Source: Hymenochaete sp. R1 (Eukaryota; Basidiomycota; Agaricomycetes; Hymenochaetales; Hymenochaetaceae). Taken from it: a stretch of DNA of 64,000 bases. The notes under the pieces were generated by a model. That model made no database searches and was not told the DNA's origin. It was given only the letters and a program-made list of their open reading frames with translations. Shown here one piece after another: positions 14,671 through 61,284 of the stretch. The stretch spans positions 1 to 64,000 of the forward strand of contig JAFREE010000112.1 of the NCBI GenBank assembly GCA_019400425.1, read 5' to 3'. How positions within the stretch are numbered: position 1 is the stretch's first letter; every line of letters starts with the position of its first letter. The position numbers and the translations under genes were made by a program.

Positions 14671-16164
14671 TGTCAGCATCCATCTGACCGCGTCAACAAC
14701 AACAATCATCAATAACGCGGTCCAAATGCGCCAAACTGCACAGCTTCCCGATGCGTGGATTGCATTCCACTCTTCAAATCAAGACCTGGCCAATCCCTTC
14801 GAGCAAACATTCGCCGATTTCATTGTTATTCAGGGAACAAAGGCTCAGTGACATCCCAACCAGCCCAGTCTCTTCTGCTATGGCCCAACCATTCCAGACT
14901 AGACTGGAATGTCGTGACCGTTTCTCGAGTGGTTGTTCTCTAGAAAGTAGCACAGCTTTCGAAATTTCCCAGGCTCTTTGGTCCAAATTCTATAAAAGAC
15001 GTCTCCTCTCGCTCACCTTTCGTCTCCCCATCTCTCCCTCGAACCACTACCATCCCTTTCAAGGGACGAGGGATCTTCATCATAGCCACTCAAGGCTTCA
15101 TCCTCTACTGTGCTCTCAGGCTCTGCGCGATGCCACACATCACTCCTTCATACTTCTGCCACTCCGCATCCTTATTCTCCGTCGTCTGCACCATATAACA
15201 CATACACATACACATGCACACCGCAGACGACACGAGCACACGTAGTACCACACTGGCCGGTTCGAGATAGAGGTATGTGTCACTCACAGTAAACTCTTCG
15301 TACTCATTCCTCCTTCAGACAGCATCATTGCGGGGCTGGCAGCTCCAACCAGAGTCCGCCACCGTGTCAGCCGCATCAACCAAGCATCTCTCGACGGCCA
15401 GGGCAACAACCCAATCCAGGCTTCTACGGTGGGGGTGGCCGCATCGTGGATAGTGAGGCATTGAATTGGCCATGTAAATATAGAGCTTTCCACTCAAGTA
15501 GTTAGCATACTGACTCACTGTCTCTGTCAGCCTCAGCATATTAATATTGGTCTTCCGCCTCAAAAAAGGCGTGTAGGCAGAGGGCTGTCATTTCAGTGAC
15601 AGCACAGTGAGTCTGGGTGGATGGGCCAGCTCACTCGAGGGTGCTTCTTCCCAGTCGCACTCTCGATACGCCGGGGTCAGGCGAAATGACCGGGGTTGGC
15701 CAGTCTTACGAGATTGGGTTAACAAAAGGAAGTGGGTGGCAGGGCCTCTTCTACTCCCGACGTACTATGGCGATGGGTTCGACTGAATTGTCGCTTCCTG
15801 TTCCTGGTGCTTATATGCGCGGAGCCATTCTTGTTTCGACCGAGTATTGGGCCGCCATTCTGCGGAGGCATGCTGATTCCTAGTTTCTGGTAAGTGGAAT
15901 CTTTCTCTTTATTGCAGGCTTCGGCTCACCTTGTTTATCAGGACCTGACGACAGATGGATATTATTTTATTGGGGGCAATATACTGATGATATATTGCAA
16001 TTTCTTTTCTTTCGAAAAAAACGATGCTTGGTCTGGCTCGAGACCGGGAGTCGGCGCAAGATATCCATTATGGAGCCGGCGGGAGGTGGGTGGGCGGGAC
16101 CACCTCCGACGGTGAGTGGCTTTTTTCTCCTCTCCTCTCGAGTAGATAGCTTCTTGTAATATCA
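14671..16164 (+). mobile_element. Solo LTR-like repeat, copy A
   Basis: About 1.5 kb, sharing long near-identical tracts with copy B (21833-23350) and the split copy C/D (29495-35865). The left boundary TGTCAGC is common to all three copies while the sequence upstream differs, so it is a real element edge. The right edge (TAGATAGCTTCTTGTA..) is accurate to about 20 bp, and no clear target duplication survives. A TATA-like box (TATAAAAG) lies at 14991 in a tract shared by all copies, fitting an LTR promoter. No reverse transcriptase, integrase or gag frame is present. The sequence between A and B holds ordinary host genes, so they are solo repeats and not the two ends of one element. Guanine deaminase starts 400 bp downstream. 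Confidence 0.65.
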
Positions 16165-18449: not shown

Positions 18450-21041
18450 TCATCTTAAAAATGAGTTGAAGAACGGTCCGGGATTATATCTCTCCCTTGG
18501 AAGGAAGCTATGCTGCTCAGGACCCACCAACTCGAGCTTCAGATTCTTGTTCGCCTCATTGACCTCCACCGACTTGTCACTGTAAGCTCGTCTGTCGGTG
18601 TCGGAGACCGTCGCTGTCCGACCAAGATCGATGAGACGGAACCTGCGGTGGCGGCTGCTGCGCTGCCAGGGAGGGGACTGCAGGGGTCCGTTTTGGACGA
18701 GAAAGTTGCGCTGGTAGACGGAGTTGTGGAGGTAGCCGGCTAAATGCAGACGACGGAGGAGGGACATGCATTCATATCTGAATTCGAGAGCGTTAGAATG
18801 GGGTGGATAGAGGAAAGGGGCGATGGGCTTACCTTTCGTCTTTGGTCATGGAGTCGATGTCGGCCATGACCCCGCAATGTTCGAGGAGTAAGATGGGACT
18901 CAAGAATCCCTTACTACCATCCACTACTTCCGTTTCCGTTTCCTTCCCCTTCCCTTTACTTTCCGTTTTGTCGTCGACGTCGTCTTCTTCATTCTGGCTC
19001 ATGTTTTCGTCCTCATCTACATCCATATCTGTTTCGTCACCTCCCGACTCCTTCTGCTTGCTTTTCTCATCCTTCACCTGCTGTTTTGGGACTCTAACTT
19101 TCTCATGCTCGTCCGGCACATAATACCCATAGAACTGCGGAACGACCGCCCCCACGGGCGTCGGCTCTGTCATTGGTGAGATGACATTATACCCATTCCA
19201 ATGTTCGTACATATGCTGAGGGAAGCGCATATAATTCCTGGCCTCACGTTCGAGCATCTTCTCATGGTTCTCGTATTGGTCATCGGGCAGTGACAACTTC
19301 GCCGTGATGCTTACGCGCTGACTCGGAGGCGCCGGCGCACGCGCACCAATGTGTTCGCAAAACGGAGGACGGAACTGCACGAACCACGCGCGCAACGTCT
19401 TGTACCTGACTGAATAGAGTTCCTCTTTTGTGATGGCGCTGACGTCCCCGCCCTTGTATATCGCCGCGTATTGCTGGCGCATACCGTAGTTATTGCGATC
19501 TTTCTCCTCAAGACGCTCGACTTCCTTCGGGTCGAGTTTCGATCGACGCTCGTCTTCTTCAAGGTACCGATCCATGATACACGACATGCATGGCTTGGGA
19601 TCGACGAGCTGCTCGCGCGGAAGCTCCCATTCGACCTGGTACACGAAGGAGTGATGACCCTCGCCAATACGACGGCGCGGGGAGATGTATAAATGTGCCA
19701 GAGGGGTAGGTTCGTAGCCCTTTGGGCGGTCACCCTCCATGCCCTTGAATGCATTTTTCTGCTCCTCGGACATCTTGAGGTGGTAGTACCGCGTCTTGTA
19801 CTCTCTGGTGCCCCATTTGCATTGGTGGGCTTCTAGGGGATTGCGCTGCAGCTTCTTGGCCTCTTCGGAAGTGACTGCGAGGACGTTCCAAGGGTCGTGT
19901 ACGACAAGGTGGCGCGGGAGGAAGGCAAAAGGGACTCTTTGTTGGAAACGCGGGAGCGGTGCGCTGAATGGCACGAGCGGCCATGGGTCTGGATATATAT
20001 TTTGCACGTACATGGAGTTTTTCCCCTGAAAAACTCAAAATCAAATACTGATCGTCGATAAAACGAATAAACCACATACCAAGCCTTCTACGGATGTCTT
20101 ATCGAATTTGAGAGGCCTCCCGGTCTTACCCTGTGCAACTTGTTCTTCCAACCATTCAAGGTACTCCCCAGTCCTGTATGGCTGAATCTGGTGTGGTTCT
20201 TCTTCAAGGTCCGCCTGCTTGAGCTGGTCGGCCGCAGCGTCGAGCTCGCCGACCTGGCGCATATATGCAGCAAGTTTGCTTCCGGAAGCTAGCGGAGTGG
20301 CCGGAGCGTTCCATAGCACCGTGTTCGACGCGTAAGATATGATAGATGATAAGCAATTTGATACAAATAGGTAGATAGACACGGAAAGACGTACAAATAA
20401 CCCAAAGGCTAGGGCATGACGGGACGCGCATAACACGATAGAGGTCGTAGAGAGTCGCTCCCCAGATTCCACATCCTATACGAATATACACCACACGGTT
20501 CCATACACACCCACGAAAGATGCACGATCAAACAACACGAAGATTCAATTTCACGTAAGCGTCACAGAAAGCAAGCGAGAACACACTACTAACCGTTCCC
20601 CGTGTGCTTGCCTGTCGGCGTCTCCTTGAACGACGGACCATTCGGATTTCTCGGCCAAGACAAGAATATGAACCTCTCCATTCTGTTTCTCACCTTCTCG
20701 ACCTCGCTCCGCCCGTCCCTCCCGTACTCAGTGAGAGCGCTAGCGTCTGTCTCCGCTTCCTCCTTCCCCTTGCCCTTAGATTCCGGGTGAATGGCAAACT
20801 CGTCTTCCTTATTCCACCAACGAATGACGCGCGCCCAATCTGCGTCGGACTTGCGGAAGGTCTCAAAATCATGGTCGTCGGGTACGCGTGGATAGGAAAA
20901 GGTGAGCATGCCTGCTGTGCCTTGCACACCTGGGGCGGAGGTGTCAAAGGACATGGGCGTTTTGGGGGGCGGTGGGGGTTGAGAAGGAGTTTGAGGCGCT
21001 TTCGCCTTTCCTCTTCTGACTCTCGTCTTTCCCTTGGCCAT
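18450..21041 (-). CDS. Protein-kinase-like fold protein, probably a pseudokinase
   Basis: Multi-exon gene starting at 21041 (MAKGKTRVRRGKAK, basic and Pro-rich). A middle exon near 20090-20280 carries a helical charged tract. The long exon 18829-20013 carries GEGHHSFVYQVEWELP, an ATP-loop-like segment, and a Cys-containing insertion (CMSCIMDRYLEEDERR). After an acidic Asp/Glu/Lys-rich linker comes GFLSPILLLEHCG (hinge-like). The last exon has RRLHLAGYLHNSVYQRNFLVQ, aligning with the catalytic loop but with Ser where the catalytic Asp should be, and RLIDLGRT in place of DFG. It ends at 18450. This matches a kinase-like/APH-like family common in basidiomycetes whose function is unknown. It converges with guanine deaminase, leaving 195 bp between stop codons. 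Confidence 0.7.
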
Positions 21042-21832: not shown

Positions 21833-23350
21833 TGTCAGCCCTCGACGCGTCAACAAATGTCAACAGCGCGGTTCAAATTCATGGAAGCTACACAGCCTCT
21901 CCGACTCGTAAATACACCACAATCCTTCGCATCAGGTCAGGTAGAACTAAAGGCGTATGGTACTTCTTCCCCCTCCCCCCCTCCGGCCTTCCCCGCGAGC
22001 AGATCTATCTCTGCACCATGGGCTACAAAAGGGACGTCACTATCAATATCCTCTGTGGCACAACAACCCAGTCCTTTTCACCATGACCCAACCATTCCAG
22101 ACTGGACTACTGGAATATCGTGACCGTTTCTCGAGTGGTTGTTCTCTAGAAAGTAGCACAGCTTTCGAAATTTCCCAGGCTCTTTGGTCCAAATTCTATA
22201 AAAGACGTCCTCTCTCGCTCACTTACCGCCTCCCCATCTCTCCCTCGAACCATTACCATCCCTTCATAGGGACGAGGGATTCTCATCATAGCCACTCAAG
22301 GCTTCCTCCTCTACTGTGCTCTTAGGCTCTGCGCGATGCCACACATCATTCTTTCATACCTCTGCCACTCCGCATCCTTATCCTCCGTCGTCTGCACAAT
22401 GCCACACACATACATAACCACATTGCAGACGACACGAGCACAGGTACCACACTGGCCGCTTCGAGATAGAGGTATGTGCCACTCACCGTAAACTCTTCGT
22501 ACTCATTCCTCCTTCAGACAGCATCACCGTGGCGAGTGGCAGCTCCAACCAGAGTCTGCCACCGCACCAACCAAGCATCTCTCGACGGCCGGGGCAACAA
22601 CCCAATCCAGGCTTCCACGGTGGGGGTGGCCGCATCGTGGATAGTGAGGCATTGAATTGGCCATGTAAATGCAGAGCTTTCCACTCCTACACATAGCATA
22701 CTGACTCACTGTCTCTGTCAGCCTCATCATATTAATATTGGTCTTCCGCCTCAAAAAGGCGAGTTGGCAGAGGGCTGTCATTTCAGTGACAGCACAGTGA
22801 GTCTGGGTGGATGGGCCAGCTCACTCGAGGGTGCTTCTTTCCACTGCACTGGTAGTCGCACTCTCGATACGCCGGGGTCAGGCGAAATGACCGGGGTTGG
22901 CCAGTCTTACGAGATTGGGTCAACAAAAGGAAGTGGGTGGCAGGGCCTCTTCTACTCCCGACGTACTATGGCGATGGGTTCGACTTCATTGTCGCTTCCT
23001 GTTCCTGGTGCTTATATGCGCGGAGCCATTCTTGTTTCGACCGAGTATTGGGCCGCCATTCAGCGGAGGCATGCTGATTCCTAGTTTCTGGTAAGTAGAA
23101 TCATTCTGTAGTTCCTAGCTTTCGACTCACCTTGTTTCTTAGGACCTAGCGACAGATGGACCGAGGATTATTGGGGGCAATATACTGATGATATATTGCA
23201 TAATTTAAAAAAACGATGCTTGGTCTGGCTCGAGACCGGGAGTCGGCGCAAGACATCCAATATGGAGCCGATGGGAGGTGGGTGGGCGGGACCACCTCCG
23301 ACGGTGAGTGGTTTTTCTTTTCTTTCGGGTAGATAGTCTCTTTCAATACA
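21833..23350 (+). mobile_element. Solo LTR-like repeat, copy B
   Basis: Same orientation as copy A and colinear with it. It opens with TGTCAGCCC, then CGCGTCAACA and GCGCGGTTCAAAT. The shared promoter-like tract has a TATA box at 22197. The shared 3' part contains TATTGGGGGCAATATAC and CTCCGACGGTGAGTGG. Several short indels separate it from A, for example near 22390-22450, suggesting old, independently decaying copies. No coding capacity is evident. It lies about 200 bp from the 3' end of the V-ATPase d gene. Confidence 0.65.
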
Positions 23351-23562: not shown

Positions 23563-24834
23563 CTAGAAAATAGGAATGAAGTCCTGAATGCGATCCCTCG
23601 CGTCCTGAGCGATACACTCTGCAATCCACGTAATACTCCTGATTTCATGCTCTTTGAGCTTCAAGTAGCTATAAAAGACTGCGTACTGGAACTGCTGAAG
23701 GAACGCTTGTTTGTTGAGATGAACCTCCTGCGCGATGAACTTGTCCTCGAGCTGTGCCGCGAGGCTATTACTATCCGAAGATGACGACGCGGACCCAACT
23801 GACGCGTCGAAGAACGCCCTATACTCCGCCACATGCTCACAAGCCTGCCTGACCTGATCCATCTCGTCCGCCCTCGCAAGCGTATTGTTCCCTTCCGGGT
23901 ACAGCACCCCAATATCAGGGAAGAGCCGTGCACGCTGTTCCTTGGAGAGCTCGGTGTTGAACGAGTTGATGGTGACGGAGAGCGTGCGGCGGTCTGCTTC
24001 GAATGCGAGGATGCGGTGCATGACTTCGGCGGTGGGGCCGCCGATTTGGGAGGTACAGAAGTGGTGGAAGTCTTCGAGGTAGGATTTGTAGAGGGTGTTG
24101 CGGATGATTTCGATGTTGAGGTCGTCGAGGTCGGCGGCGGAGAGGCAGTCACGGAAATAGGGCGCTGTGGAGGTTGAGTCAGTATTACAGGATATATTTT
24201 TTCTTGTGGCGAGAAGGTATCGTACCGAGAGGCGTCTCGACGAGCACGCTCTGATAAAGCTCCTCCACGTTCGTCGCAACACACAGTGCAGGCATCGTAT
24301 CAAACACCCCGAGCGGGTGACACCGCTCAAGCAGCTCATGCGTATCGCGTTCGTGGAGCGTGCCGGTGATGAGGAGGACGACGTTGTCGATCATGTAGGC
24401 ATAGGTGATGTAGTCGAGGAAGGTGGCGAGGGGTTCGACGGCGTTCGAGCGGAGAAAGTTAAACTGGTCGACGAGGAGCTGCGTGGCTTTGTCGTTTATG
24501 GTTGAGGTGGATATGGGGAGGGGCTCGTTGGCGAGGAAGTTGCCGTAGTCGGTGGAGGAGAGCTGCATGCGGAAGTCTGCAGAGAGAGAGCGACATTAAA
24601 AACAAGACATCAGTATTGGGGAATACATGCTGAAAAGATGCAGGATATGCATACCTTCGAGGGTGTCGCACTGGGTGAGGTTGGCATAGTGAGATTGGGT
24701 GAGGATGCCTGCTTTGTAACCTCTGACGATGCCCTCCAAGAATCCTCCAGAGACCTATATGAATATTTTAATATTATTTCGAATACAAGATGATGTGGAA
24801 TGAACGGGCATACGTTGAAGAGAAGGGCCTCCAT
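23563..24834 (-). CDS. VMA6: V-type ATPase subunit d (V0 sector)
   Basis: Four exons on the minus strand. The first is only 21 nt (24814-24834, MEALLFN) and continues as [20 protein letters not shown]. Later exons give [75 protein letters not shown] and a C terminus ending [10 protein letters not shown]. These are hallmark tracts of the V-ATPase d/AC39 family, and the IPIF end is nearly invariant. Total length is close to the usual 345-360 residues. Subunit d sits on the c-ring and couples the V1 rotor to proton pumping into vacuoles. A Ser/Asp-rich insertion ([13 protein letters not shown]) near residue 270 is less usual. Confidence 0.95.
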
Positions 24835-25357: not shown

Positions 25358-28300
25358 ATGTCCTCAACAACCCTCGATTCTCCAACCCCTTCGACCTCTC
25401 GCTCTCCGCGTTCATCCCCAAGTTTAGGCGACTCAGACGTATCACTCAACATCTCATTCGAGTACAAACTCAACGAGAATGGCCAGATTGTTCGCATATC
25501 GAAAGGCTCCCAGAACTCCCCTTCTTCAACCCCGCCAACGCCCCCCAAAACCCAGGAGCTACCTTCCGCTTCCTCAGCATCTCCCCCTGCTTCTCGTGCT
25601 TCTCTAACTAGGTCTGGCAGTTTGCCTGGGGCTGGCGCGTCGACATCAGACCACGCGCCCTCCATTGAGTCTCTTTTAGCTCCCGTTCAGCAATCTCGTC
25701 ATTTGACTCGAACCGCCTCAGGACCCGTCAACCTCGCAACGCCCGGTCAGGCAACCCGTCCAACATCCCTCATTGGTTCCTCTACTTCTGGTCTTCCCAG
25801 CACAGGTCGTAAAGTCGGAGGGGCACAGCGTATTCGCAGGGAAGATGTCGAACGTCAGAGACGTGAAGTTGAGGAACAGCTCGCTTTAGAAGCAGAGGAA
25901 AGGGAGCGTGAAAGAGCCAGGAAAGCCATCGAGGAGAAAGAGAACGCGTACGCCACCCATCACGAATCCCGCTACTCACCCCCTCCTTCCTCGTCCCTCA
26001 ATTCGCGTCCGATCCACTCTCTACCGTCCCGAACCAACTTCCACGGTATATCTCGCGTCGGGCGTCCCTTGGTGTCTGCCAAAAAGCTTCCGACCGTGTC
26101 CAAAATTGCCGAACACGAGACCGATGAAGCGGAGGCTGATAATGGGGGTGAATTTGGAGAACAGCTACAAGAGCATTACTATCAGCAGCATCGAAACTCA
26201 AATGAAGGGAAAACTGCCGAGTCGCAAGGCTATGTTCCGAGGACACGTTCAGTTCCTCCCCATAAGGTCCCTTTACCGGCCTCGCGTCCAAACTCGGTGC
26301 ATGGCGCTCCTTCACGAGCAAGACGCGTCACTCTCGAGGAGAAATTGCGACAGGAGCAGGAGATCGCGAACGAGGAAGCTCGAGGTGAGTGACTTTGCTT
26401 TCCACAAAACAAGTCGATTTTAAAAGACTTTTTAGCTCTTTTAGAAGAAGAGCAATCCAAACGCAAATCACCTTCGCCCACTCAGAAAGCCGTACAAGAC
26501 CCTCATCTTTCTCAACCTCCAGCTCACCTCCGTGGGCATCACCGACGCGACTCTGATACCCTCCGGTCTGGTCCACAATATTCGACGAGAGGGGACATGG
26601 ATCCAGATCCACACCAACTGTCGCCCTCTGCTCGCAGTCTGGGAGGCACAACGATGGTCGCGTCCAACTCTGGCGCCAACCGCGTTAGACGTAGTCCGTC
26701 TCAACTCACCCAAACCGACCGTGATACCCATGGAGGATATGCGAATGGCAAGAGCGGCAAGATGCAGGCTGCCGAGATGAACGGCGCCAGCCGATCTCAG
26801 CAAGCCATTCACCACCCACAACAACAGCAACACCAGCAACAACAATCACATTCACAGTACCAACAGGTGCTCCCCTCTGCAAAGAACCTCATCGTGAACA
26901 GACGGCCGTACGCGCGTCTCGACCTCATCGGGAAAGGCGGCAGTTCCCGCGTGTACCGGGTTATGAATGCCCAGAACGAAATATTTGCAATCAAGCGCGT
27001 TGCGCTCGACAAGACGGATGACGAGACGATTGGCGGGTATATGAATGAGATCGCGCTGCTGAAACGGCTGGAAGGGAATCATCGGATTATCAGACTGGTT
27101 GATAGTGAGGTGAAGGGAGGCGGGGGGAGTAGTAAGGGGAATTTGATGTTGGTCATGGAGTGTGGTGAAGTTGGTGAGTTGGTATTTTTTGCTGATATGA
27201 CTTTGCTTGGATGTGTGGCTTTTGTGCTGACGAGGACGGGCAAAGATTTGGCTCGATTATTGCAGGAACAACAAAAGGAGCCCATGAATATGGTTTGGAT
27301 CGCGTATTATTGGCAACAGGCACGACTTGTTTCCCTTCATATTTCTTGCACGTTATCTCACGCAGACCATTCGTGTAGATCCTTCAAGCTGTGCAGGTTA
27401 TTCATGAAGAGAAGATTGTCCACTCTGACCTGAAACCAGCCAACTTCGTCCTCGTCAAAGGTCAGCTGAAGCTAATCGATTTCGGTATCGCAAACGCCAT
27501 CGCAAATGACACTACTAACATTCAACGAGACCATCAAGTACGTTGAGACTACATTTCTCAAAATTATCTGTTCTCACATATTCCTTACGCGTTTGCGGCT
27601 CCCTCAAACCCCTCTTTAAGATCGGCACAGTTAACTACATGAGTCCCGAGGCAATAGAGCTCCCCGAGGGCATGCGCCGCCTCAAAGTCGGCCGTCCCTC
27701 CGACGTCTGGTCCCTCGGTTGCATCCTCTATCAAATGGTCTATGGCCAGCCACCCTTCCAGCATCTCAACGTTTACCAGAAAATGAAAGCCATTCCAGAT
27801 ACGGACCACGTCATCGAGTTCCCGGAAGAGTCTGTGCCAATACTGCCTGCGTCGAAGATACAAGCTCCGGCACAAAGTGGGACTGGGTCTCCGAGTCCGC
27901 CGCAGAGGCTGGAACACTTGGCGAGGAGCGTGCGGACGGATGTGATTGCGACGATGAAGAAGTGTTTGGTAAGGAATCCGAAGGAGAGAGCGACAATACC
28001 GGAGTTGTTGGATGACGATTGGTTGGCAATGAAAGAAGGCAAGTGAATGCGTTGGTGTGGACCGCCTCCTTCGTGTCGCTAACGAACACACTTGGATCGT
28101 AGTCCCCGCCCCAGCTCCACCACCCACACCTCCGCCCCCTCCAACACCAACACCAAAACTAAAGGAGGACGAGACGATCATAAACCCGTACTACATGCGC
28201 CAGCTCCTCCGGTACGCGATCCAGATCGCAAGCGAGGGTCCGCGGCGGATGTCGGAGCAACAGGAGGAATCAGAAGCTGCCGTACGTTTGTTTGCCTTTG

Positions 28301-29494: not shown

Positions 29495-29837
29495 TTCAAG
29501 TAACAAGAAGCTATCTACTCGAGACGAGAGGAGAAAAAAAGCCACTCACCGTCGGAGGTGGTCCCGCCCACCCACCTCCCGCCGGCTCCATATTGTCTTG
29601 CGCCGACTCCCGGTCTCGAGCCAGACCAAGCATCGTTTTTTTAAATTATGCAATATATCATCAGTATATTGCCCCCAATAATCCTCGGTCCATCTGTCGT
29701 CAGGTCCTGAGAAACAAGGTGAGTCGAAAGCTAGGAACGCGAAATTGATTTCACTTACCAGAATCTACGAATCAGCATGCCTCCGCTGAATGGCGGCCCA
29801 ATACTCGGTCGAAACAAGAATGGCTCCGCGCATATAA
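29495..29837 (-). mobile_element. LTR-like repeat C/D, 3' fragment
   Basis: Inverted copy of the 3' part of repeats A and B: reverse-complement CTCCGACGGTGAGTGGC, TATTGGGGGCAATATAC and ATTGGGCCGCCATTC. Homology stops abruptly at CATATAA (29831-29837). The next LTR position resumes at 34718, nearly 5 kb away. The two fragments therefore form one LTR-like copy of about 1.48 kb split by the transposon at 29838-34717. The outer end near 29495 is accurate to about 20 bp. Confidence 0.8.
29831..29837. repeat. Target-site duplication, left (CATATAA)
   Basis: CATATAA directly precedes the TGGGGGTG terminus. The same 7 bp follows the right terminus at 34718-34724. The uninterrupted LTR copies A and B carry this site once, in the equivalent GCTTATATGCGCGG context, which confirms a duplication on insertion. 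Confidence 0.85.
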
Positions 29838-30267
29838 TGGGGGTGGGCAAGCCGTACTCGCGTTTGGGCGCGAAAATGTGAGTGTCGATCGACCGAAAAG
29901 GCAATTTTCGGTCTCAAGCTCTTATAGGCGAAGTTCGACACAATCTTCCCCACTCGTTTCCTCGGTCTACATAACATATTAAATTAAGCAGTAGTAATAA
30001 AAATTGTAGATATATATGAAATGAAGAGGCCCCCAAGAGGAATTTTTTTAAAATTGATTTTGAGCTGAGATATGGCCTGTTCAAAGGTCAAAATAGGCCA
30101 TATCTCGAGTGATAAAAAGAAATTTAAAAAACTGTCTTGGGAAATGGATAAGATAGCAGAGTAAAGCTTACCTGCAAAGTTTGAGGGTGCATTAAATGGC
30201 GAAAAGCGGAGAAAACAAGAACAGAAGAAAGAAGGGAATGAAGAGGGACGAAGCTGGAAATGGGAAG
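29838..30267 (+). repeat. Long inverted repeat, left arm (type a)
   Basis: About 430 bp pairing as an inverted repeat with about 30600-31024. The outer 104 bp (TGGGGGTGGGCAAGCCGTAC ... TTCGACAC) is strongly conserved between arms. Inner parts are more diverged but alignable, for example TTGAGGGT..GGTGGAAAGC..GAGAAAA. The first 104 bp also align end to end, at roughly 70 percent by eye, with the type-b terminus. Contains a hairpin at 30067-30106. Confidence 0.8.
30067..30106. repeat. Hairpin GAGATATGGCC/GGCCATATCTC
   Basis: Perfect 11-bp stem (30067-30077 with 30096-30106) and an 18-nt loop within the left type-a arm. A counterpart lies in the other arm at 30757-30796 with the terminal pair changed from C-G to A-T, so pairing is kept. 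Confidence 0.65.
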
Positions 30268-30371
30268 TGGGGGTGCGCAAGTGACCGATAACGTTTCTGA
30301 CTGAAATTTAGAGTGTCGATCATCGAAAAAGGAAATTTTGGCCTCGAGGCCTTGTAGGAGAAGTCGCGACA
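30268..30371 (+). repeat. Internal 104-bp terminal repeat (type b, left)
   Basis: Starts TGGGGGTGCGCAAGTGACCG and ends GTCGCGACA. It matches the reverse complement of 34614-34717 with about two differences over 104 bp. The upstream sequence (AAATGGGAAG) does not match the flank of the right end, so this copy is not bounded by its own target duplication here. Confidence 0.85.
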
Positions 30372-30599
30372 CGGAGCTCGCTTGACACAGTCAGCTCTTG
30401 TTGACCAAGAGAGTCATGATACCAAAAACTTAATAGACAAAGATGATCACTAATATGATAAATATACAACTTTATTTTTTTGAACCAGACTTAAGAATGA
30501 AAAAATTGTGTAAAGGGCTTGACATTCTGAGGTGTGAGATTGCCAAAGTGCATACACAATGGTTCACTGGCTGCTCGCGCGTCTGAAGCCCTGCGAGTC

Positions 30600-31024
30600 C
30601 TCACAAATATGCCTGTTTCCAGTCCAGTTCCCCTCTTTCCGTTCCCCTTTTCTCAGCTTTCCACCAAATAACCTACCCTCAAATATTGCATGTAGCCTTC
30701 ACTCCATCTTCTTAACAAACACCCAAGACAGATTTTTTATTTTCTCAATATTACTCGAGATATGGCATGTTTTGACCCCTATATATGCCATATCTCAGCT
30801 CAAACTCAGAAATTCAAAAATCCCTCTTGAGGGCTTCTTTATCTCGTGTATATCTACATTTTGTACTACTCATTTTAATTTAATAAGCTATGTAGACCGA
30901 GGAAACGAGTGGGGAAGATTGTGTCGAACTTCGCCTATAAGAGCTTGAGACCGAAAATTGCCTTTTCGGTCGATCGACACTCACATTTTCGCGCTCAAAC
31001 GCGAGTACGGCTTGCCCACCCCCA
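30600..31024 (-). repeat. Long inverted repeat, right arm (type a')
   Basis: Reverse complement of the left type-a arm, ending CTTGCCCACCCCCA at 31024. No CATATAA follows it (AAGGGAGCGGG instead), so it is an internal terminus copy and not the end of the mobilised unit. It lies about 185 bp upstream of the transposase-candidate start and may include its promoter. Confidence 0.8.
30757..30796. repeat. Hairpin GAGATATGGCA/TGCCATATCTC
   Basis: Perfect 11-bp stem (30757-30767 with 30786-30796) in the right type-a arm, the counterpart of 30067-30106. The innermost pair is A-T here and C-G in the left arm. Confidence 0.65.
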
Positions 31025-31209
31025 AAGGGAGCGGGCATGTGACTGGAGCGCACGTCTTTGCGCATACGCGTTACTCAACTAACAGTTTCTTAATGTCTCC
31101 TAACGTTTGCCCTTTCTTTACTAATTTCTAACCAAAACGCGTAAGGAAATATTAGGAATGGGTTATAAGATGTTCAGGAAACTCACATAGTGCGCATATA
31201 GTGACCAGA

Positions 31210-34200
31210 ATGACATGGAAGAGGTCGATTTCGGCCAAGGAACAGAGAGCCGCCGCCGCCGCAAGAGCTCGCACCGCTCGACATTCTGGATCTTCTGCGA
31301 GGTCTCACTGCCTTGAGGATGCATCTGCTGTACTGCGCGCATCTGGAAAGGCCCCAAAGATGCTAACAAGAGCTGCGAAAGCGCGCGAAAGCGACCTGGG
31401 GACCCATATCGAGCAGCTCTGCAGCGAGAACTACTCACTTCAGTCTGCGCTCAACTCTGGGCTAGAAGACCTTCAGGAGCTCATGAACCGGATTAATGAG
31501 AAAGAAAAATGCGAAAAAGAACAAGAAGACAAACTGAAAACGATAAAACGAAGCCAATATCTTGCCGTCTGGAACTTAACCGCTGCACGTGAGCGCAGCT
31601 CCTTGCTCTCGTCCTCCAATGTCTCCGCACGTCGCGAGCGCACTCGTCTTGCTCTCCGGAACAAGGAGCTGGAAGAAGAAAACAAGAAACTCAGAAACAA
31701 GAACCAAGAACTCGCAAATGAAAACAGAGAAGTTCTTACTACGTCGTCCTACAACCTTTGCACCTACTCCTCTGCTCTTCAGTCCGCACAAGACGCTCTC
31801 GGGGCTCTCCAACACCGATATGACTTACAGACTCAAGTCGTCATTGCCTCTACACAGAAACTTGAGTCAAATGAGCGCATTTTTCTGCAAAAAAACGCAA
31901 AACTTATTGAGGCACTGGAAAACTCTCGTTCTGAGTACCGCCGGGTGTATGCAGCGCTCGACTACTCCAAGGGCCGACTTGGTCTACTAGAAACGGTCGT
32001 CCAAGGCCTCTGTGATGCCCTGACGCTCTTCCGGGACCGCAGGTATGTCAACTCAGCTCGAGAGCTGATAGGAGACCTGGCATCTTTAGGATGCCCAGCC
32101 GCAAATATAGGAAAGGCAATTGAAGCCTTTCTTCGACTCATTTCGCGCCATTTGGATCTCAAGTCGATTGGTATCAAACTCCGCAATCTAGAAGGGTTAA
32201 ACCGTACCGTCTCCCGTGTCAAAATTGAACGGTTGGTCTGGTCGAACCTTCAGCTAGCCTCGGAGTTGGCAGAAGCAGAAAGTGAGTTGAAAGCCTGAAG
32301 GATAAAAGCAAATACTCACCAAATTAAAGCAATCACGCTCGAAGGTGACGGTACCTCACACAAAGCATTGACCTGGCAGTCTATGCATGTAAACTATCTG
32401 GTGCGCAATGAGGAAGGGACCCTCGAACCCAAATCCCGAAGCCTGGGCGCAACCCAGCTTTTTGACCATCGCTCAGAAACACAATTTGACGCGTTTTTGG
32501 ACCGCTTGAACAATATAGTCAATGCAGACCGTACAGGACTACTTTCGGCTGCTCGAGAGCCTCTGTCGATGACGAGTCTTGCGCTGAAGCTCGTTGGAAC
32601 CCATGGAGACCATGCCGAAGACCAAAAGAAGCTCAACAGGCTCTTTGGTCGATGGGTGGCGGCAGCAAAGGATCTGGTAGACAAAGCAAGGAATAACCTT
32701 GAAGAACAAGAAGTCGCCCAGACGCGAGTATTTTTGTTTGTCGGTTGTAATGCGCACAAGGCGCTGAATATGTCGAAGGGCGGGGACAAGGAGATGCAAG
32801 CGGAATGGGCGAGAATTGAGGGCGCAACACCGCCCAAACTCCTTCCCAATCGTGACAACAGGCAGGTTATTGCCTGTGCCAGTGCGCAGTCCGATAGTAC
32901 AGCGACGTCCGAGGCCGAACGATATGCGACCTCGAACTCATCTGGCGGCGCAACAAAAGCCACCAGCATTGCTGGTGGCCTTTTCAATCATTCAAACGAT
33001 AAAAAAGGCCACCATTACAAGCTGCGGGACTTTAAGGAGCTGGAGACGGGCATTAGGAAAGACTTTCCAGACGTCTCTAATACCAGGTATATATACCCTT
33101 TTGTCTTTCTCTTTTCGTTCACTAGTACAGGGTCTGTGGCTGCGTATATGCGCCAAATTCCTGGTCGCGCGACTCGCGCCGCAGCTGCCAGTGACCTAAC
33201 CTCTCATCTCATCATCTCTTTCTCTTTCGTACGCTCATCTCTAATACTTTCTCGTAGGTACATGTCTCATGAGGAAGCCGCGGCAGAGCTTCTGGCTCAC
33301 CGTGAGCTGTATATCAAATACCTAGAGCAACAGGATATCAAAAAAAACGGTAATAATAACATGGAACTCAACTTACTCGACGCGTTGGAAGACCCCTCGA
33401 CCCTCACTGAACTCGCCGCCCTCACACTCTACCATGAGGGAATTTCTTTCCCTTTTATGCTGGAAATCCGACGCCGCGAGCAAAAAAAACAGAACGCCCT
33501 CGATTTGGGCCCGTTCCATGAAAAACTCAAGGCCCACCTCAAGTCGCTTGAGGCCGACCCAAGCCCCCTGATCGCGCCAGACGCAGACCCAGCCAGAGCT
33601 TCGCTCATCGGCTTTCCAACCTGGCACAACAAGGCCGCTATCAATGCCATCGAGACCCTACGACCCAAGCTCCCTCATTTGGAAAGGCTTTTGAAAGCCT
33701 TCTTGCGCGGCGCGTTACGCAAAGCCGAGTCTTTCACCGAGGAATTCAAAGCCGGCGGCGCAATCGATCGCATGAGCCAAACCGACCGGGATAACATCGT
33801 ATTCCCGGTCACAAACGATATTAATGAGGGCCAGTTAGGCTCTCTTCGTTCGTTTTTGGCTCATAATATTCTAGGAAATATCGAAACGAATTTTAATTCG
33901 TTGCAGATGTACAAAAGGAACGAAACAGCCGGATTTGTAGCGAAATGGGGTGACACGGAGGGGATTCGGGAGTATGTAATGGGTGAGGCGCGAAGAATAG
34001 ATGAGCTCAAGGTCGACAAAGAGCATAGGAAGGATGCAGCAGAAAGGGCACAGAGGGAAATTGACGAAATGCGGCAGAAGAAAGACGACCGGAACCAGAA
34101 AGACAAGGAACAAGGCGAACGACTGAAGAATCTCTCATTCATTACTAACCCGGAAGCCCTCAAAATCGCCACATCAGCAACAATAGAGGACCAGCTACGT

Positions 34201-34332
34201 AAATGGAAGCTAACACAGCCAAATCTAACGACTTCGAAGGGTAACAAAGCTGAAAAACTACAGAAACTAATAGGTATCTTAAAGTCCGAGTTCCCATCTA
34301 ATTTTACTCAAATTTCAAACCCTGACCCTTAA
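31210..34332 (+). CDS. Candidate transposase: coiled coil, DGTSHK core, SAP-like end
   Basis: Exons 31210-32281, 32330-33086 and 33258-34332 join in frame to 967 aa. Residues 1-60 are basic and Ala/Arg-rich. Residues 60-240 are coiled-coil (RNKELEEENKKLRNKNQEL). The core starts right after intron 1 with TITLEGDGTSHKALTW, followed by GDHAEDQKKLNRLFGRW, FLFVGCNAHKALNMSKGG and LLPNRDNRQV. After intron 2 come YMSHEEAAAELLAHRELY, ALDLGPFHEKL and VTNDINEGQLGSLRSF, then a charged helix. A SAP-like tract (IEDQLRKWKLTQPNLTTSKGNKAEKLQKLI) closes the protein. I recall similar hypothetical proteins being widespread in Agaricomycetes, without an assigned function. Its place inside a TIR/TSD element suggests a transposase with an RNase H-like fold; DGT, GDHAED and NEG are candidate acidic sites. 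Intron 2 is 171 nt, stop-free and in frame. Confidence 0.65.
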
Positions 34333-34613
34333 TTATTTTTACTTATATTTCAACTTATTCATATCTGCTCTGCATATACTAAATTTTATTACAAGTTACT
34401 CATTAAAATTAATTAATATTCACTTTGAAAGTCGAAAGCAAGCTGGCATGTATGCATGTCGTAGCTATGCTTTGTGGGTCCGTTCCACTCAGCCGAATCT
34501 CGGAGAATTTTTGCACGCGCGATCTCCGAGATCTTCTCAACTGTTCTTCTCAATTTCAAACGATTCGATTCACCCGATTTAAAGTAAATACATGTTCTTT
34601 CGGGGAAGCGGTT

Positions 34614-34717
34614 TGTCGCGACCTCCCCTACAAGGCCTCGAGGCCAAAATTTCCTTTTTCGATGATCGACACTCTAAATTTCAGTCAGAAACGTTATCGG
34701 TCACTTGCGCACCCCCA
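34614..34717 (-). repeat. Right terminal inverted repeat (type b')
   Basis: 104 bp, nearly identical in reverse complement to 30268-30371. It ends GCGCACCCCCA at 34717, directly against the right CATATAA. It shares only about 13 of the first 14 bases closely with the true left end (type a), so the mobilised unit has unequal ends. Confidence 0.85.
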
Positions 34718-34724
34718 CATATAA
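34718..34724. repeat. Target-site duplication, right (CATATAA)
   Basis: Exact copy of 29831-29837. The following GCACCAGGAACAGG continues the LTR-like sequence that stops at 29831. Confidence 0.85.
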
Positions 34725-35865
34725 GCACCAGGAACAGGAAGCGACAATGAAGTCGAACCCATCGCCATAGTACGTCGGGAGTAGAAGAGGCCCTGCCACC
34801 CGCTTCCTTTTGTTAACCCAATCTCGTAAGACTGGCCAACCCCGGTCATTTCGCCTGACCCCGGCGTATCGAGAGTGCGACTGCCAGTGCAGTGGAAAGA
34901 AGCACCCTCGAGTGAGCTGGCCCATCCTCCCAGACTCACTGTGCTGTCACTGAAATGACAGCCCTCTGTCAACACGCCTTTTTTGAGGCGGAAGACCAAT
35001 ATTAATATGATGAGGCTGACAGAGACAGAGAGTCAGTATGTTATTTACATGAGTGGAAAGCTCATTTACATGGCCAATTCTATGCCTCACTATCCACGAT
35101 GCGGCCACCCCCCACCGTGGAAGCCTGGATTGGGTTGTTGCCCTGGTCGTCGAGAGACGCTTGGTTGATGCGGCTGACAAGGTGGCAGACTCTGGTTGGA
35201 GCTGCCACTCGCCGCGATGATGCTGTCTGAAGGAGGAATGAGTACGAAGAGTTTACTGTGAGTGGCACATACCTCTATCTCGAAGCGGCCAGTGTGGTAC
35301 ATGTGCTCGTGTCGTCTGCGGTATGTATGTGTATGTGTAGTATGGTGCAGACGACGAAGAATAAGGATGCGGAGTGGCAGAGGTATGAAAGAATGATGTG
35401 TGGCATCGCGCAGAGCCTAAGACTCGGAGCACAGTAGAAGAGGAAGCCTTGAGTGGCTATGGTGAAGATCCCTTGTCCCTTGGAAGGGATGGTAGTGGTT
35501 CGAGGGAGAGATGGGGAGACGAGAGGTGGACATACTGACCCGTCTTTTATAGAATTTGGACCAAAAAGCCTGGGAATTTCGAAAGCTGTGCTACTTTCCA
35601 GAGAACAACCACTCGAGAAACGGTCACGATATTCCAGTCCAGTCTGGAATGGTTGTGTCATAGCAAAAGTGGCTGGGCTGGATGAGATGCCAACGAGGTC
35701 GCCGCAAACCTGTCAGAAGTGAGAAGAAAACAGAGTACTGACTACCAAGATAATTGATGTAAAGGATCAGGGAAGGGTAAGTACGTTTCGTACAGGAAAG
35801 CTGTGCACTTTTCTAAATGTGGACCGCGCCGTTGACAACTGTTGACGCGTTGAAAAGGGCTGACA
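34725..35865 (-). mobile_element. LTR-like repeat C/D, 5' fragment
   Basis: Inverted copy of the 5' and middle parts of repeats A and B. It ends at 35865 with the reverse complement of TGTCAGC, the shared left boundary. The TATA-like box is at about 35544-35553 on the minus strand. Together with 29495-29837 it rebuilds a complete LTR-like copy in the same orientation. The outer flank (ATATTTATATCGC) shows no certain duplication. Confidence 0.8.

Positions 35866-53038: not shown

Positions 53039-61284
<8,246 letters not shown>

Follow-up and report, generated by a model that had tools for sequence, protein, structure and literature searches.

What kind of mobile element has split a long terminal repeat (LTR)-like sequence in the genome of Hymenochaete sp. 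R1? The locus lies on contig JAFREE010000112.1 (assembly GCA_019400425.1), of which positions 1–64,000 of the forward strand were analysed; this whole stretch is called the window. A first-pass annotation had described the insert as a complete DNA transposon that does not fit the known superfamilies. Our analysis indicates, with a probability of roughly 0.85, that it is an autonomous, transposase-encoding cut-and-paste DNA transposon, consisting of 4,123 bp of its own sequence, into whose left end a member of its family, a 757-bp miniature inverted-repeat transposable element (MITE), has inserted. Copies, ends and duplications were collected within the host genome, whose contigs are labelled C24, C110, C113, C205, C231, C260, C309 and so on. 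The features that delimit the element are as follows.

29831–29837, no strand: left target-site duplication CATATAA (direct sequence check).
29838–29851, plus strand: left terminal inverted repeat (TIR), TGGGGGTGGGCAAG, the start of a left end of ∼400 bp that is common to the MITE.
29838–30267, plus strand: left end of the autonomous element, as far as the nested MITE.
34614–34717, minus strand: right end, 104 bp, terminal CTTGCGCACCCCCA, 98% identical to the first 104 bp of the MITE.
34718–34724, no strand: right target-site duplication CATATAA (direct sequence check).
29503–29837, minus strand: one part of the interrupted LTR-like repeat, from alignment to uninterrupted copies.
34718–35689, minus strand: the other part of this repeat, from the same alignments.

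The sequence TGGGGGTGGGCAAG starts at 29838 and CTTGCGCACCCCCA ends at 34717, and CATATAA adjoins both. A 601-bp empty site reconstructed from the two flanks and one CATATAA aligns in one piece to 22712–23315 (95.7%, 7 gaps) and to 15521–16123 (90.7%, 28 gaps), and each of these uninterrupted repeat copies has a single TTATATG at the insertion site. The element ends, the insertion site and the 7-bp duplication are therefore established. These data bear out the earlier view that the transposon is complete and that its flanks are two halves of one LTR-like repeat, found uninterrupted elsewhere in the window. The 104-bp TIRs proposed for the element do not hold up, as its outer ends (29838–29941 and 34614–34717) agree at only 52 of 104 positions.

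The strongest inverted pairs at the locus are 29838–29987 with 30875–31024 (150 bp, 98%) and 30267–30371 with 34614–34718 (105 bp, 98%). Taken by themselves, such crossed pairs would fit a composite artefact, namely two overlapping MITE-like units (29838–31024 and 30268–34717) flanked by a chance duplication. We attribute them instead to a MITE nested in the left end.

30268–31024, no strand: nested MITE, 757 bp, in inverted orientation, flanked by AAG/AAG only.

Bases 1–104 of this unit resemble the element's right end and bases 361–757 (about 400 bp) its left end, while for its middle (30372–30627) the element offers no significant match. A solo copy of the 757-bp unit, 98% identical, stands between GAACAAC duplications at C24:322289–323045, and C205 carries the element's left end and the start of its gene without the MITE. 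Given these two loci and the empty site for the outer pair, we reject the overlapping-unit artefact, to which we assign next to no likelihood. At the nested site AAG alone stands on both sides, against one AAG in the uninterrupted form; hence the insertion produced either a duplication of 3 bp or one of 7 bp that has since been shortened by 4 bp.

Does the transposon encode its own transposase? Our splice model of the gene is given below.

31210–32281, plus strand: exon 1, with the ATG at 31210; encodes the long helical part, a putative coiled coil, and, ahead of the catalytic core, a three-helix region that is perhaps helix-turn-helix-like, judging from the secondary structure of the relative P0001.
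32282–32329, plus strand: putative intron, 48 bp, GTGAGT...AAAG, which takes out an in-frame stop (32296–32298).
32330–33086, plus strand: exon 2, with the proposed D1 codon (32347–32349), D2 codon (32608–32610) and CxxH motif (32746–32757).
33087–33257, plus strand: putative intron, 171 bp, GTATAT...CGTAG, open in frame; aligned homologues have no extra residues here.
33258–34332, plus strand: exon 3 to the stop, with the helical insertion, the proposed catalytic E (33826–33828, in TNDINEG) and a helical C-terminal tail.

Removal of the two putative GT–AG introns (48 and 171 bp) would give a 967-residue product without a stop. Two protein searches returned at least 16 and then at least 36 homologues (at least 48 distinct identifiers), mostly named 'hypothetical protein'. 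Those with a source name are all from organisms that we take to be Agaricomycetes, and on this sequence evidence the lineage is widespread in that class. In a 33-row tree of 30 of the at least 48 homologues with the proteins of the window, C309 and C113, the window protein joins the latter two (support 100/99); next out are two Sanghuangporus proteins and two others (100/99), on long branches.

We compared the family with Pfam, with NCBIfam and with the PDB, the last both by sequence profile and by predicted fold. Pfam was scanned at E ≤ 1 with 14 homologues and the second open reading frame (ORF2) of the window, and at E ≤ 10 with seven more homologues, and the window's two ORFs were also scanned; some of the homologues begin beyond the N-terminus. 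Nothing credible was found in the 21 homologues or the window ORFs. Two Pfam matches were not believed: DUF4763 (E = 0.0007), seen in one of 15 members, and Dor1 on window ORF1 (0.0022), which is under its cut-off. The NCBIfam scan of six proteins gave coiled-coil look-alikes and chance matches alone, all under cut-off; these include Rad50/SMC models (down to 7.6e-5), far under their own cut-offs and likewise not believed. The profile search of the PDB gave nothing relevant, its 55 weak matches (query A3) being mainly to coiled-coil or helical proteins. A search of viral contigs with one peptide pattern found no relatives.

Predicted fold was more informative than these sequence scans. Among the 50 PDB fold matches listed, the closest for two models was the hAT transposase Hermes. 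The models have an RNase H-like core, and about 300 mostly helical residues lie between CxxH and the proposed E; the uninterrupted gene thus seems, on the strength of predicted structure, to encode a DDE-type transposase. The first-pass annotation had envisaged a large coiled-coil/SAP-like protein. A coiled coil is plausible, given a long helix at residues 43–133 in the P0001 model and the weak matches to coiled-coil proteins; the helical C-terminal tail could be SAP-like, but no Pfam SAP match was found.

The lack of any transposase domain in the sequence scans could also mean that the gene is a passenger and that the true transposase is encoded elsewhere. Set against this are the predicted RNase H/Hermes fold and the fact that, in three elements alike in their ends and in the length of their target-site duplications (TSDs), the longest open frames belong to this gene. 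Selection on the core points the same way: between the window and C110, dS is 0.216 and dN 0.024, a ratio of 0.11 (597 codons). We accordingly give the passenger explanation little likelihood. For exon 1 of the window against C205, dN/dS is 0.40 (179 codons), so constraint is weaker in that part; between C309 and C113, synonymous sites are saturated.

A 7-bp duplication flanks five of six insertions, the exception being the nested MITE with its 3 bp, and the sequence varies by site; duplications of this length thus recur among the host-genome copies. One insertion is spread over two contigs. C205 has a left end preceded by GACCTAG and C110 a right end followed by GACCTAG, and they are probably one second copy split by the assembly. 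At the break, GTCGC stands beside TGTTAG... and ...GTAACA on both contigs (C205:18920–18994 and C110:1–76) at the same element position, which suggests that an LTR element inserted into this copy and broke the assembly there. Identity between the second copy and the window element is 77–78% in the left third (29838–31746 against C205) and 93% elsewhere (31743–34717 against C110), and the second copy's left end is closer (86%) to that of the MITE. It is as if one of the two, the window element or the second copy, were a recombinant.

Two paralogues emerged when the genome was searched at the protein level; identity in their longest matches is 35% and 36%. In each, two long open frames follow one another as they do in the window. 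Their loci were scanned for any 5- to 9-bp duplication with a TIR of 12 bp, at most 3 mismatches being allowed. In both, the top-ranked pair has a duplication of 7 bp and tips that closely resemble those of the window element.

C309:114711–118640: paralogue, duplication CTACTCA, tip TGGGGGTAGGCA, first-ranked in the end scan.
C113:141273–146318: paralogue, duplication TGGTAAG, tip TGGTGGTGGGC, first-ranked in the end scan.

When only 7-bp duplications with a 12-bp TIR of at most one mismatch were considered, each paralogue had one such pair, compared to 0 of 300 and 1 of 300 dinucleotide shuffles (n = 300 per paralogue). The paralogue end pairs are therefore more than chance. The TIR of the C309 element is perfect over 36 bp. 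For the window element, the scan put the outer pair sixth of 13, because the 104-bp inverted pair yields many internal matches. A further relative on C231 is a broken relic with stops, for which the end scan gave no convincing pair. Within the C113 element, ∼1 kb (C113:143655–144674) matches dispersed repeats (C35:105198–105920 and three places on C304) at 84–87%, and is probably another nested insertion.

The 14-bp tip has 10 exact matches in the genome, eight of them accounted for, against three for a reversed control pattern. In view of that control, and as no element likeness was seen by eye in the bases inspected, the other two (C198:3538 and C1:103583) were taken as chance. With one mismatch allowed, the tip occurs at 51 genome sites and the control at 21. 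A Repbase rule, worded for non-autonomous elements, groups families that have equal TSD length and at most one mismatch in the first 11 bases (PMC4455052). By this rule C309 and C113 both fall together with the window element at the left tip; at the right tip there are two mismatches to each.

To which superfamily, then, does the transposon belong? A 7-bp duplication by itself is not new, since it is known for hAT7, Kyakuja, Dada and Galileo and for hAT families mentioned in Repbase. The earlier statement that the element fits no known superfamily was in this respect too strong, all the more so with Hermes as the nearest fold. That the lineage is under-described is supported: its transposase belongs to an unnamed family, unmatched in the sequence libraries searched, and no paper listed in searches of the openly licensed PMC literature describes it in title or abstract. 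Passages of PMC12477816 and PMC9674265 contained nothing relevant to it.

One possibility is a divergent hAT family of the kind denoted hAT5, hAT6 or hAT7, that is, one that lies within the hAT tree, makes a 7-bp duplication and has no recognisable BED finger. The hAT duplication is 8 bp, and 5–8 bp in described variants (PMC12730594), a widened range that includes the 7 bp seen here. In hAT7 of rust fungi, also fungal, the duplications are likewise 7 bp, but hAT7 is classed as hAT by sequence (PMC12730594), whereas the window family was unrecognisable as hAT in our tests; hAT families with a 7-bp TSD are mentioned in Repbase as well (PMC4455052). Like Hermes, the element has long dissimilar ends with short imperfect TIRs (PMC10368747). 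Its predicted protein also shares with Hermes the RNase H core, the large helical insertion that in the hAT fold separates CxxH from E, and a CxxH between D2 and E, which hATs of this and another fungus also have (RCMPH). In contrast to Hermes and other hATs, there is a 7-bp rather than an 8-bp duplication, and a long helical N-terminus in the models where a BED finger would stand, with no BED match in window ORF1 or the scanned homologues, some of which lack the N-terminus. The tips are TGGKGGTRGGC-like and begin with TG, whereas hAT tips begin with YA. No hAT domain (e.g. PF05699, the dimerisation region) was found on the 21 homologues or the window ORFs at E ≤ 1 or E ≤ 10, although the PF05699 model does detect hATs in the host genome. 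Profile comparison with fungal hATs (hhalign) gave probabilities of 0.1 with one hAT sequence and 0.0 with four; so few sequences give the test low power, and the own-genome hAT query from which the profile was built found only three proteins. We regard membership in hAT as a possibility of some weight that falls short of probable.

KDZ elements of the Kyakuja type are the second candidate. Kyakuja-1_LB and Kyakuja-2_LB also make 7-bp duplications in Agaricomycetes, but both have CA..TG ends without TIRs (PMC12730594); KDZ elements of Cryptococcus carry TIRs and 4- to 8-bp TSDs (PMC12810828). PF18758 was unmatched in the window ORFs and the 21 homologues, while the same model matches a locus on C260 of the host genome. 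The motifs there are DGNDSLKR, YDIGC, GHAH...C and GLEDFEGCER, which we take to contain the KDZ catalytic residues, and the acidic motif follows the histidines by ∼20–25 residues, compared to ∼300 in the window family. The C260 locus is itself a remnant of a KDZ-family transposase, with stops inside the PF18758 match. Pfam, ends and motif spacing together make KDZ membership very unlikely.

Other known groups resemble the transposon in part. Dada, of the C/DxxH transposase group, makes 6- to 7-bp duplications, but it inserts into small RNA genes and is without TIRs (PMC3706591), whereas the window element has a TIR and an LTR-like repeat as its target. Galileo, of the P superfamily, makes 7-bp duplications, but with a duplication consensus of GTAGTAC and with long TIRs (PMC2775673). 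No P or THAP domain was found by Pfam in the window ORFs or the 21 homologues. P, Kolobok and MuDR transposases lie outside the 50 structural matches listed, which excludes none of them.

The predicted fold agrees with hAT, whereas the sequence scans found no hAT domain and the profile test was weak; we accordingly describe the transposon as working like a hAT element, without placing it in that superfamily. By analogy with Hermes, at least two subunits would bind the dissimilar ends (∼100–400 bp), which have TGGKGGTRGGC-like tips in common, and the enzyme would cut the element out and attach its 3' ends to the target at positions offset by 7 bp, giving 7-bp duplications whose sequence varies by site. 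The MITEs may be non-autonomous derivatives mobilised by the same enzyme. Tentatively, and at somewhat less than even odds, the lineage could be a separate superfamily of Agaricomycete DNA transposons that has a hAT fold, branches outside hAT and is unlisted in the current classification. Its proposed signature comprises TGGKGGTRGGC-like tips, 7-bp duplications, a long helical N-terminus and the motifs DGT, DHAxDQ, GCxMHKxLN and TNDxNEG.

The surroundings of the insertion were also characterised. The uninterrupted repeats (14671–16164 and 21833–23350) start with TGTCAG in the same orientation, with GTTTG before the first and after the second, and resemble the paired LTRs of a single old retroelement. 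Between them, the one ORF of at least 250 amino acids (18829–20013, minus strand) is without a Pfam match. On that reading, the repeat into which the transposon inserted would be a solo LTR that lies in reverse orientation. Host genes nearby include a V-ATPase AC39 subunit, a protein kinase and pieces of Prp8 (23563–24339, 26597–27433, 57139–60986), and the element is thus located in gene-bearing DNA.

With this assignment, at least 48 database proteins, mostly 'hypothetical protein' where named, would gain a likely function as transposases, a label that would be useful for annotating the repeats of mushroom-forming fungi. A hAT-like scaffold that would cut with a 7-bp stagger raises a testable structural question, namely what decides between 7 and 8 bp. 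As a single genome holds both uninterrupted full-length genes and small partners, a simple assay of excision is within reach.
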